A stretch of DNA of 58,159 bases, from NCBI GenBank assembly GCA_028821235.1, contig JAPPGV010000079.1:1-58159 (forward strand), in the 5' to 3' direction. This document shows, one piece after another, positions 39,001-49,323 of the stretch. Position numbers and translations under genes: made by a program. The notes under the pieces were generated by a model. That model did no database searches. It saw only the letters and a program-made list of their open reading frames with translations, and had not been told where the DNA came from. This DNA is from a bacterium. GTDB lineage: Bacteria; Actinomycetota; Acidimicrobiia; Spongiisociales; Spongiisociaceae. Position 1 is the first letter of the stretch, and every line of letters begins with the position of its first letter.

Positions 39001-40479
39001 ATGGGTGGTAGCGAGCGGATCCTGGTTGCGCTGTTCCGCCAGGAAAGCCACAGCTTCGTCCCGGGGGCCACGACCCTGGCCGACTTCGAGAGGTTCGGGA
39101 TACCGACCGGGGCCGATGTGCTGCGGCGAGCCGGCAACAGGGAGATCGACGGTTACCTGGATGCAGCCGAGGACCTCGGCGTCGAGTTGGTCCCCGTGCT
39201 GGATACCAAGGCGCAGTCTGGTCCACCCTTGGACGACGCTACTTTCGAGCACCTGGTCGGCCGGGTGTGTGACGGGATAAGCCTCCACCGGGACGGGATC
39301 GACGGGGTGATGCTGGGCCTCCACGGCGCGATGGTCACCCACAGCCTCGACGATGCGGAGGGTGAGGTCCTGGCCCGGGCACGAGCCATCGTCGGGCCGG
39401 ACATTCCCATCGCCACCACGCTCGACCTTCACACCCATATGACGCGGCGCATGGGCGAGACGGCGGACATCCTGGCGGGATACCAGACCTGCCCCCATGT
39501 GGACCTGCGGCGTACCGGCGAAGTAGCCATGCGCACTCTCATACGGACCATCCGTGGTGAGGTGGAGCCGGTGGTTTCCCAGCGGAAGGTCCGGATGATG
39601 ACCGGGGCGGAGACGCATGACGACCGCCGGTTCCCCAACCGGGAGGTTATAGCCGCCCTCCACGAGGCGGAGAGAGACCCGCGGGTGCTGGCCGCCAGCG
39701 TGTTCTGCACCCAGCCCTGGCTCGACATCTCGGAACTGGGTTGGACGGTGGTCATCGTCACCGACCGGGACCCGGATTTGGGCCGGTCGCTCGCCGACGA
39801 GATCGCCCTGAAGGCCTGGAGCCTGCGGGACCACTACCTCGTGAAGAAGACCGATGTCCACGAGGCAATCGACACGGCGCTCGCGTCGGACGGGGTCTTC
39901 GCCCTGTCGGAGGGTTCTGACAGCACCACCGCCGGAGGACTGGGTGACGGAAACCTGCTGCTGAAGGCACTGCTGGATCGTGGCGTCGACGTTCCATGCC
40001 TGCTGATGGTCAGCGATCCGGCGGCGGCCGCTGCCTGCGCGCAGGCCGGCGTCGGCGCCAGGGTGACCACCCCCCTCGGAGGTAGCGCGAACCCCGCCTT
40101 CTACAGCCCCGTGGAGGTGACCGGCACCGTGGCCACCCTCACCGACGGACGGTACATAAACCACTACGGCGGAATCCGGCCCGTTGACATGGGTCCAACC
40201 GCATTGCTCCAGGTGGGATCGATTTCGATCATGGTGACCACGCATCGCCCACCCATGGTCGACTACGAGGCTTACCTCAGCGTGGGCGCCGACCCCCGGA
40301 AGATGCGGATAGTGCAACCCAAGTCCGCCGGCGCCTACCTCGAGTACTACGAGCAGATCGCGACCTGCATCGACCTGGACGTCCCGGGTCCCTCGGGCAG
40401 CGATCTCACCGCCCTTCCCTTCAAACGGATAAAGAGGCCGCTCTGGCCCTGGGACCGCGACCTGCAAGACCCCTGGTAG
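39001..40479 (+). CDS. M81 family metallopeptidase (MlrC-like), second copy
   Basis: A 492-residue MlrC-type protein: RQESHSFVPG near residue 13, LHGAMVTHS near 107, TTLDLHTHM near 139, EGSDSTTAGGLGDGN near 302 and the C-terminal domain with YGGIRPVDMG. Clearly homologous to the protein at 27767-29254 but diverged, so the two probably differ in substrate. A good ribosome site (GGAGG) lies eight bases upstream of ATG 39001. It follows the alcohol dehydrogenase gene directly and closes the island. Confidence 0.85.
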   Translation: MGGSERILVALFRQESHSFVPGATTLADFERFGIPTGADVLRRAGNREIDGYLDAAEDLGVELVPVLDTKAQSGPPLDDATFEHLVGRVCDGISLHRDGIDGVMLGLHGAMVTHSLDDAEGEVLARARAIVGPDIPIATTLDLHTHMTRRMGETADILAGYQTCPHVDLRRTGEVAMRTLIRTIRGEVEPVVSQRKVRMMTGAETHDDRRFPNREVIAALHEAERDPRVLAASVFCTQPWLDISELGWTVVIVTDRDPDLGRSLADEIALKAWSLRDHYLVKKTDVHEAIDTALASDGVFALSEGSDSTTAGGLGDGNLLLKALLDRGVDVPCLLMVSDPAAAAACAQAGVGARVTTPLGGSANPAFYSPVEVTGTVATLTDGRYINHYGGIRPVDMGPTALLQVGSISIMVTTHRPPMVDYEAYLSVGADPRKMRIVQPKSAGAYLEYYEQIATCIDLDVPGPSGSDLTALPFKRIKRPLWPWDRDLQDPW

Positions 40480-40683
40480 TTCTGGTCAGCCCCGACTCTT
40501 CGTGCGCGAAGTCTGTCGGGATGGATCGTGTCTGCTACCAACCGCCTCGGCCAGGACTACGACGTACCGGTCTCACGAAGACGGGTCTCCTCCCCGACGC
40601 GAGGGCTGTCACAACCGAGAGGAACCATTGACACCCGCTAACACCGTCATCGATATGTGCGCCAGGGAAGCACGCAGGGGTTG

Positions 40684-40775
40684 CGGAGGCGGACGGGAAT
40701 CGAACCCGCCGGGGCACTCTCGTACCCCCACTGGTTTTGAAGACCAGGGAGCCCACCAGGCGCTCGTTCGCCTCC
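40684..40775 (-). tRNA. selC: selenocysteine tRNA (tRNA-Sec, anticodon UCA)
   Basis: The minus strand folds into a long tRNA: acceptor GGAGGCG...CGCCTCC with G discriminator (40684), D arm GAGC...GCTC, anticodon stem CTGGT-CTTCAAA-ACCAG with UCA in the loop, a long extra arm (GGGG...CCCC), and a T arm around GGTTCGATTCC. The length (92 bases), the UCA anticodon, the long extra arm, and the extended acceptor/T stack of 13 pairs are diagnostic for bacterial tRNA-Sec. CCA is not encoded. It implies that the organism has selA, selB and selD, none of which is in the window. Confidence 0.93.
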
Positions 40776-40883: not shown

Positions 40884-41192
40884 ATGGCTGCCAAGAAGAA
40901 CGACAATCACGATTCGAACGGTTACCGGATCATGCCGGGTTGGCGGGTCGGTCACCTGATGGAGCAGTCGACCACCCGGTCCGGGCTGCTGGTTCCGCCC
41001 GGGACCGAGTCCACCAGCGACGCTCTGGCACTGGTGGACATCCATACCGGCCGCCGGTTCTGGGCTGTGCCGACCGGGGCCTGGCGCTTCCTGTGGCCGG
41101 ATAACAACCGGCTGGCGGTCGCCGTAAGGAACTCCCAGATCATCGCCGAGGAGCAGGATGATCCACCGACCGGCAAGGACTCCTATCTGTGA
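40884..41192 (+). CDS. conserved hypothetical protein, 102 aa
   Basis: A 102-residue soluble protein beginning MAAKKND. The centre (residues ~25-90) looks like a small beta-rich domain (VDIHTGRRFWAVPTGAWRF), and the C-terminus is charged. I do not recognise the family. ATG 40884 is chosen because the upstream part of the frame overlaps the tRNA-Sec. It is followed by hflX at 34 bases and may be cotranscribed with it. Confidence 0.6.
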   Translation: MAAKKNDNHDSNGYRIMPGWRVGHLMEQSTTRSGLLVPPGTESTSDALALVDIHTGRRFWAVPTGAWRFLWPDNNRLAVAVRNSQIIAEEQDDPPTGKDSYL

Positions 41193-41226: not shown

Positions 41227-42534
41227 ATGATCTCCGAAGGCCGCCGGGGACGGCGCCTCACCGCCACCGTCACCGACCTCGAGGTCGCCCGGCAGAAGGC
41301 CTACCTCATCAGCGTCGACTTCGACGGGGCCGGCATCGGCGACGTCGATCGGTCACTCGAGGAGCTGGTCCTCCTGACGGATACGGCCGGATCGACCCCG
41401 GTGGCGACCGCGCCGGTCCGGCGCCGCACCCCGCACGCCGCCACCCTGATCGGTCCGGGCCAGGCCGCCGACCTGGCTCGAGACGCCCAGGCCCTGGACG
41501 TGGACGTGGTGGTGTTCGACAACGACCTGACACCTGGCCAGCAGCGCAACCTCCAGCAGGTCTTCGAGTGCGACGTGGTCGATCGGGTAGCCGTGATCCT
41601 GGACATCTTCGCTCAGCACGCGACCAGCCGGGAGGGCATGCTCCAGGTGGAGTCGGCCCTCCTCCGCTACCACCTGCCCCGGCTACGCGGGAAGGGGACC
41701 GCACTGAGCCGGCTCGGTGGAGGCATCGGGACCAGGGGACCCGGCGAGACCAAGCTGGAGACCGACCGGCGGCGGATCCGGCAGCGCATCACCTATGTGG
41801 AAAAGCGCCTGAAGGACGTCCAGACCGTCCGGGAGGCCCAGCGCAAGACACGCACCGGTTCGGCCATCCCCCTGGTCTCGCTGGTCGGATACACCAACGC
41901 AGGCAAGTCCACGCTGTTGAACGCCCTCACCGGAGCCGGAGTGCTCACCCGGGACCGCCTGTTCTCCACCCTCGACTCGACCACCCGCCGACTCGAGCTC
42001 CCCACCGGGCGCCAGGTGTTGCTGTCCGACACGGTGGGCTTCGTCCGCAGGCTGCCCCATCAACTGGTCGAGGCATTCCGTTCCACCCTCCAGGAGACGG
42101 TCCAGTCCGACCTGCTGCTACACGTGGTGGACGTTGCCGAACCCGGTGCGCCCGGCCAGATCTCGGCGGTGAGGGAGGTACTCGGCTCGATCGGGGCCGG
42201 CCAGATCCCCGAGCTCCTGGTGCTCAACAAGTCCGACTCAGCCGACAGGACCGGTATCTCTCGCTTCGAGCAGCTGTATCCGGACGCAGTGCTCGTCTCG
42301 GCTGCGGAGGCCACCGGCCTCGAGGAGCTGGCGGACCGGATCGCCGGCGTGCTGACCCGGGGCTTCCTGGAGATCGACCTGGTGATTCCCTACACCGAGG
42401 GATCCGTCCTGGGGGAACTCCGCCGCGAGGCGGAAGTGCTGACCGAGGACCATAGGGCGGAGGGCACCCTGGTCAGTGTCCGGCTGCCTCCCGACCGGGC
42501 CGGACGCTACCGGCGCTTCTCCGCGGTCGGCTGA
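41227..42534 (+). CDS. hflX: ribosome-associated GTPase HflX
   Basis: A 435-residue HflX GTPase. The N-terminal HflX domain contains the GPGQAADLARDAQALDVDVV block near residue 76 and RLGGGIGTRGPGETKLETDR near 161. The G domain has G1 GYTNAGKSTL near 220, G3 DTVGFVRRLP near 265, and G4 NKSD near 335. HflX binds the 50S subunit and splits or rescues stalled ribosomes. Length and motif order are usual for the family. The upstream 102-aa gene lies 34 bases away. Confidence 0.92.
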   Translation: MISEGRRGRRLTATVTDLEVARQKAYLISVDFDGAGIGDVDRSLEELVLLTDTAGSTPVATAPVRRRTPHAATLIGPGQAADLARDAQALDVDVVVFDNDLTPGQQRNLQQVFECDVVDRVAVILDIFAQHATSREGMLQVESALLRYHLPRLRGKGTALSRLGGGIGTRGPGETKLETDRRRIRQRITYVEKRLKDVQTVREAQRKTRTGSAIPLVSLVGYTNAGKSTLLNALTGAGVLTRDRLFSTLDSTTRRLELPTGRQVLLSDTVGFVRRLPHQLVEAFRSTLQETVQSDLLLHVVDVAEPGAPGQISAVREVLGSIGAGQIPELLVLNKSDSADRTGISRFEQLYPDAVLVSAAEATGLEELADRIAGVLTRGFLEIDLVIPYTEGSVLGELRREAEVLTEDHRAEGTLVSVRLPPDRAGRYRRFSAVG

Positions 42535-48687: not shown

Positions 48688-49323
48688 ATGGATATTTCAT
48701 TCTGGGTTGACCCGCTCTGACCGTGGTGCTGGGTGACGGCCCGGTGGGTCGTCGACGAGGTAACTCCGGACAGGGACGTGCGGGTGGAGTGGGAACCGAT
48801 CAGCCTGATGTTCAAGAACGCTCCGGAACCGGGCTCCGACCGGCACCGGACGACCTCCCGGACGCACGGCATGTTGCGAGTGATGGAGTCGGTGAGAACC
48901 GAGTTGGGCAACGAGGGCGTGTTCCGCGCCTACTGGGCGTTCGGCACCCACATCCACAACGACGAGAACCTGTTCGACTTCGACGTGGCCGAGGCGTTGG
49001 CGGCCATCGGCATCGACCGCGGCCATGCCCGGGCCTTCGGTGACGGCTCGTGGGACGGGGAGATCCGCCGCCGCATGGATGCCGGGCTCGCGCTGGTGGG
49101 CGATGACGTGGGCACTCCGATCATCGCCATGGAGGATGCCCGGGGTGACCGGGTCGGGATGTTCGGCCCCGTGATCACCCGGGTGCCGGACCGCAACGAC
49201 TCTTTGCGGCTCTGGGACGGTCTGGTTGCCGTCACTGCCGTACCAGGCTTCTGGGAGCTGAAACGGACCCGCACCGAAAACCCCGAGTTCGGCGACCGGC
49301 CGGCCGGCGTTCCACCCCTCTAG
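48688..49323 (+). CDS. selenoprotein of the DsbA/Rv2466c family, Sec in the UPWC active site
   Basis: A 211-residue protein read through an in-frame TGA at 48718-48720 (codon 11). Before it the frame codes for MDISFWVDPL, after it for PWCWVTARW, giving DPL-U-P-W-C-W. Members of the mycothiol-dependent reductase family (Rv2466c) have FDPLCPWCW at the same place, and the C-terminus here also matches (VGDDVGTPII near residue 150, FWELKRTRTE near 193). Sec therefore replaces the first active-site Cys. A hairpin at 48734-48754 with GGU in the apical loop, 22 bases after the UGA, fits a bacterial SECIS. tRNA-Sec is encoded at 40684-40775. If UGA were a stop, the remaining ORF from GTG 48733 would lack the whole active site. 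Confidence 0.85.
48734..48754 (+). promoter_or_regulatory. bacterial SECIS-like hairpin behind the UGA codon
   Basis: Nine pairs form between 48734-48742 (UGACGGCCC) and 48746-48754 (GGGUCGUCG), including one U-G and one G-U pair, with a three-base loop GGU at 48743-48745. Bacterial SECIS elements lie immediately 3' of the UGA within the coding region and carry a G, usually GGU, in the apical loop at 16-37 bases from the UGA. Position and loop meet both rules. Binding by SelB is inferred. Confidence 0.65.

Follow-up and report, generated by a model that had tools for sequence, protein, structure and literature searches.

Does the short tRNA gene at positions 40684-40775 really encode the tRNA for selenocysteine (Sec), and does the bacterium that carries it read UGA as Sec? 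The gene lies in a window, the whole stretch of DNA that was analysed, of 58,159 nucleotides, which also contains a protein gene with an in-frame UGA. The parts involved are textbook material: tRNA-Sec itself, the proteins SelA, SelB and SelD, and the presence of Sec within SelD.

The answer put forward here is almost certainly correct. The tRNA gene would be the selC of an Acidimicrobiia bacterium, serving a route via SelA, SelD and SelB to UGA codons that are marked by a SECIS hairpin. Its predicted clients are selD and an Rv2466c-like gene. The genome, called G000 below, is a draft that is 97% complete with an estimated contamination of 4.99%.

The tRNA-Sec gene and its surroundings

The gene is 92 nucleotides long, counting the discriminator base G73, and runs from 40775 to 40684 on the minus strand. 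From 40775 to 40685 its letters are GGAGGCGAACGAGCGCCUGGUGGGCUCCCUGGUCUUCAAAACCAGUGGGGGUACGAGAGUGCCCCGGCGGGUUCGAUUCCCGUCCGCCUCC, after which comes G73 at 40684. The original prediction had these coordinates exact to the base, and did not mention the strand. The Rfam model RF01852 matches with 77 bits (E 4e-14), well over its cut-off of 47 bits, which settles the covariance-model check that had been suggested. All of model positions 1-91 are covered, and RF01852 outscores the other families of its clan at this site. ARAGORN reports SeC(tca) at 40775-40684, in agreement with the predicted UCA anticodon. Because ARAGORN detects the gene straight away, the expectation that annotation would easily miss it holds just partly. 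Together with a comparison to 33 relatives, this confirms 40684-40775 as a genuine tRNA-Sec gene.

A tRNA that reads UGA might also be a suppressor derived from tRNA-Ser. The long variable arm and G73 are common to tRNA-Ser, and the genome's own tRNA-Ser genes do match the Sec model weakly. A scan of the entire 3.6-Mb genome (162 contigs) with RF01852 argues against this, as the runner-up loci score at most 48 bits. Those that were inspected are ordinary tRNAs, and the highest-scoring ones include tRNA-Ser and tRNA-Leu. The tRNA-Ser genes thus sit about 30 bits below the gene studied here, so that tRNA-Ser is not the better fit. The anatomy described next and the co-occurrence with SelA and SelD also speak for tRNA-Sec, which makes a suppressor extremely unlikely.

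In textbook bacterial tRNA-Sec, the 13-bp stack of acceptor and T-stem is divided as 8+5. The gene has the predicted long extra arm and extended stack: the variable arm is long, and the 3’ strand of the stack measures 13 nt when set beside the 33 relatives. The division is a different matter. In 34 of 34 actinobacterial tRNA-Sec genes, acceptor pair 8 of an 8+5 fold would be A.C or U.C and never a standard pair, and in the same 34 an extra G ahead of the T-stem is able to pair with the C of that position. The stack therefore reads as 7+6. G73 is likewise found in 34/34.

The D-stem has six pairs, a 4-nt loop TGGT (UGGU), and one bulged nucleotide after pair 4. PMC7609411 and PMC5330540 name two hallmarks of tRNA-Sec that are seen here: six D-stem pairs around a loop of 4 nt, and a 3’ strand of 13 nt in the stack of acceptor and T-stem. 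The bulge is present in 30/30 genes of the order versus 0/4 from elsewhere in the phylum. The bulged base itself varies (G, A or U), and the pairs that flank it covary (GAGC/GCUC, GGAC/GUCC, GUGC/GCAC). The available part of the Secmarker paper (PMC5330540) describes 12-bp variants and acceptor-stem bulges, and a D-stem bulge was not found described in that part. CCA is not encoded: the 3’ end is GCAA (window 40680-40684), an ending shared with just one of the relatives read (G006), while most close relatives have GCCA.

The original prediction placed the gene between an M81 peptidase gene and hflX. Both neighbours are there on the plus strand: an M81/MlrC-type metallopeptidase gene at 39001-40479 (PF07364, PF07171) and hflX at 41227-42534 (TIGR03156, 442 bits versus a cut-off of 217). 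What was overlooked is a conserved hypothetical ORF of 102 amino acids that precedes hflX, at 40884-41192 (plus strand), which is found near tRNA-Sec with 62-98% identity in 14 relatives. hflX is near tRNA-Sec elsewhere in the genus and family too, and in a further family (f6).

This conservation bears on another alternative, namely that the contig with the tRNA entered the bin as contamination from another bacterium. The estimate of 4.99% leaves some room for that. Against it, the tRNA and the UGA gene occur in 9/9 other genomes of the genus, and the small ORF and hflX are also nearby in those genus genomes where the flanks can be read. An origin outside this genome is accordingly exceedingly improbable.

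A UGA codon in an Rv2466c-like gene

The second feature of interest is a gene on the plus strand at 48688-49323, with a predicted product of 211 amino acids if UGA is taken as Sec. The product would start with MDISFWVDPLUPWCWVTARW. Family PF22234 matches it with 134 bits (cut-off 27), and solved relatives of Rv2466c in the PDB match with E values of about 1e-49 or better. The UGA, at 48718-48720, is the first position of a UPWC active-site motif. This is the N-terminal Cys of the CxxC (CPWC), and it aligns with Cys19 of Rv2466c, which is the attacking residue of that enzyme (PMC11841060).

The UGA is retained in 21 genomes of the order sample, in proteins that are 58-98% identical. Among the 78 readable homologues in a collection of named genomes, 53 have UGA at this position and 25 have Cys. 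The UGA forms come from Acidimicrobiia, plus bins that are labelled merely Actinomycetes, Actinobacteria or bacterium. The closest named relatives are Acidimicrobiia bins, the nearest of which is 98% identical over the selenoprotein. In a phylum-wide draw, PF22234 matches with an in-frame TGA were found only in Acidimicrobiia (G000, G109 and G310), where the position of the TGA was read in G000 only.

Bacterial SECIS elements are hairpins 3’ of the UGA whose short apical loop contains a G (PMC1088965). Such a hairpin can be drawn at 48735-48753 (plus strand), with a 7-bp stem GACGGCC/GGTCGTC and a loop CGGTG that begins 22 nt past the UGA. On its own the 51-nt fold has an ordinary stability given its composition (z -0.39). 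This means the single sequence is uninformative, and that the case has to rest on comparison. Standard pairing at all six inner positions is seen in 53/53 UGA genes versus 0/25 Cys genes. One of the pairs occurs as G-C, A-U, C-G, G-U and U-G, and none of 500 shuffles reached the observed covariation score. The loop is CGGUG, AGGUG or CGUUG.

Synonymous conservation in codons +5 to +11 after the UGA exceeds that in the remainder of the gene. For residues that are invariant, the codon is fully fixed in 4 of 6 cases within this range, versus 2 of 67 elsewhere (Fisher p 2e-4). The hairpin thus appears to behave as a SECIS should. The original prediction had already read the TGA of this gene as Sec, and that reading is upheld by its place at the catalytic Cys, by the split between UGA and Cys homologues and by a covarying hairpin seen in UGA genes only.

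Distribution of the trait and the missing selA-selB pair

tRNA-Sec is found in 9/9 other genomes of the genus, in 62 of 79 genomes in the order sample and in 165 of 296 in the phylum sample. Given this spread, the gene as such is ordinary. SelA is over its cut-off in 67/79 order genomes and SelD is present in 72/79, with one in-frame TGA in most. tRNA-Sec and SelA largely come and go together: 61 of the 79 genomes have both, 11 have neither and 7 are mixed (Fisher p 1.5e-8, a figure that ignores kinship). Five genomes that are more than 90% complete lack tRNA-Sec, SelA and SelD alike. In six order genomes SelA was found and tRNA-Sec was not, probably because of assembly gaps or divergence. Among genomes of the order, G018 is 100% complete and has SelA and SelD with no tRNA-Sec above threshold, which could be a gap or a divergent tRNA.

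In G000 itself, SelD scores 375 bits versus a cut-off of 125. Its gene, selD (L013, G000:C28:48646-49566), has one in-frame UGA, within a glycine-rich loop GGGUASK. The original prediction also pointed to SelA and SelB in the same genome as a check. Neither was found in the draft assembly. The best SelB match, at 86.6 bits, is IF-2, and was rejected as SelB.

SelA is found in every one of the nine further genomes of the genus. The sister genome G003 carries selB (L176, 5443-3662) right next to selA (L176, 7143-5434), each over its cut-off. When this region is aligned to G000, the match continues right to the end of the 10032-nt contig C155 (L176 3136), and restarts at base 1 of contig C69 (L176 8360). 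The entire selA-selB pair falls in the gap between these two contigs, and its absence is therefore very probably an assembly artefact. The assembly as it stands has neither gene, synteny places both in the gap, and it is by synteny that we infer the full Sec set. An automated survey would, given this gap, score the genome as negative for SelA and SelB.

A true loss of SelA, or its replacement by another route, had been considered, and was dropped once the gap was found. In its fullest form such a loss would make selC a relic, with both selA and selB gone and Sec production ended. That a 97%-complete assembly has neither gene is what could be said for it. The missing stretch, however, is exactly the one between two contig ends where the sister genome has selA-selB, and the selenoprotein’s UGA, frame and SECIS are intact and apparently under selection. 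A relic is very unlikely, though marginally less so than a suppressor or a contaminant.

A lineage that decodes UGA as Sec, as originally claimed, is what tRNA-Sec, a SelD with its own UGA, SelA in nine sister genomes and the conservation of UGA and SECIS together point to. As far as sequence allows, this can be considered settled.

Proposed route, meaning and known systems

The working selC would function as follows. SerRS would serylate the tRNA, after which SelA would turn the seryl-tRNA into Sec-tRNA, using selenophosphate from SelD. SelB would then deliver the Sec-tRNA to UGA codons that have a SECIS hairpin behind them. Two UGA codons are seen at which Sec may be inserted: the one in selD, and the one in the Rv2466c/Mrx2-like thiol oxidoreductase gene, 8 kb from tRNA-Sec. 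In the latter presumed enzyme, Sec would stand where the CxxC otherwise has its attacking Cys. Folding for a SECIS in selD covered a set of just three genes.

Searches of the literature, mostly outside subscription papers, turned up no Sec version of an Rv2466c-family protein. For selenoproteins or selenocysteine in Acidimicrobiia, the same literature yielded nothing on an Rv2466c-like subfamily. The Sec form therefore appears to be unreported. The wider proposal is that Acidimicrobiia have a previously unlisted selenoprotein family, in which a Sec version of the Rv2466c/Mrx2 reductase comes with a covarying SECIS, and a D-stem bulge in tRNA-Sec to which SelA would need to be adapted. We regard the chances of this being right and of it being wrong as evenly balanced. 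If true, the Cys forms within Acidimicrobiia permit a direct comparison of Sec and Cys in one enzyme family.

The Sec trait is now linked to a redox enzyme with natural Sec and Cys versions. The mycobacterial Rv2466c-type redox enzyme is a prodrug activator. With UGA decoded as Sec in these bacteria, genes of theirs that a UGA interrupts may well be genuine ones that annotation wrongly calls truncated.

The bacterium is probably a sponge symbiont, going by the bin names of relatives and a study of sponge metagenomes, in which SelA and SelB are enriched in symbionts from several phyla (PMC5649159). The Rv2466c-like gene would be one concrete client for this enrichment.

Three known systems come close to what is described here. 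The tRNA matches the bacterial tRNA-Sec of RF01852 over its full length, with UCA, the 13-nt 3’ strand, the six-pair D-stem with 4-nt loop, the long variable arm and G73. It differs in that the actinobacterial genes pair as 7+6, and in the D-stem bulge of the order’s genes.

The protein resembles Rv2466c/Mrx2, a reductase that depends on mycothiol in Mycobacterium tuberculosis (PF22234; PDB 4nxi, 5xur), with a full-length family match and an aligned active-site motif; the predicted Sec in place of the attacking Cys sets it apart. For mycothiol as its reductant the signal is equivocal: the MshC model scores 288 bits in G000, under its cut-off of 485, and also matches many control genomes. Finally, ocean metagenomes have yielded DsbA-like UxxC selenoproteins (Sargasso Sea COG2761; GOS ‘DsbA 1’), some of which may be of the same subfamily. 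They share the DsbA-type thioredoxin fold and the UxxC motif, and have been described under COG2761/PF01323 and not as Rv2466c-like.
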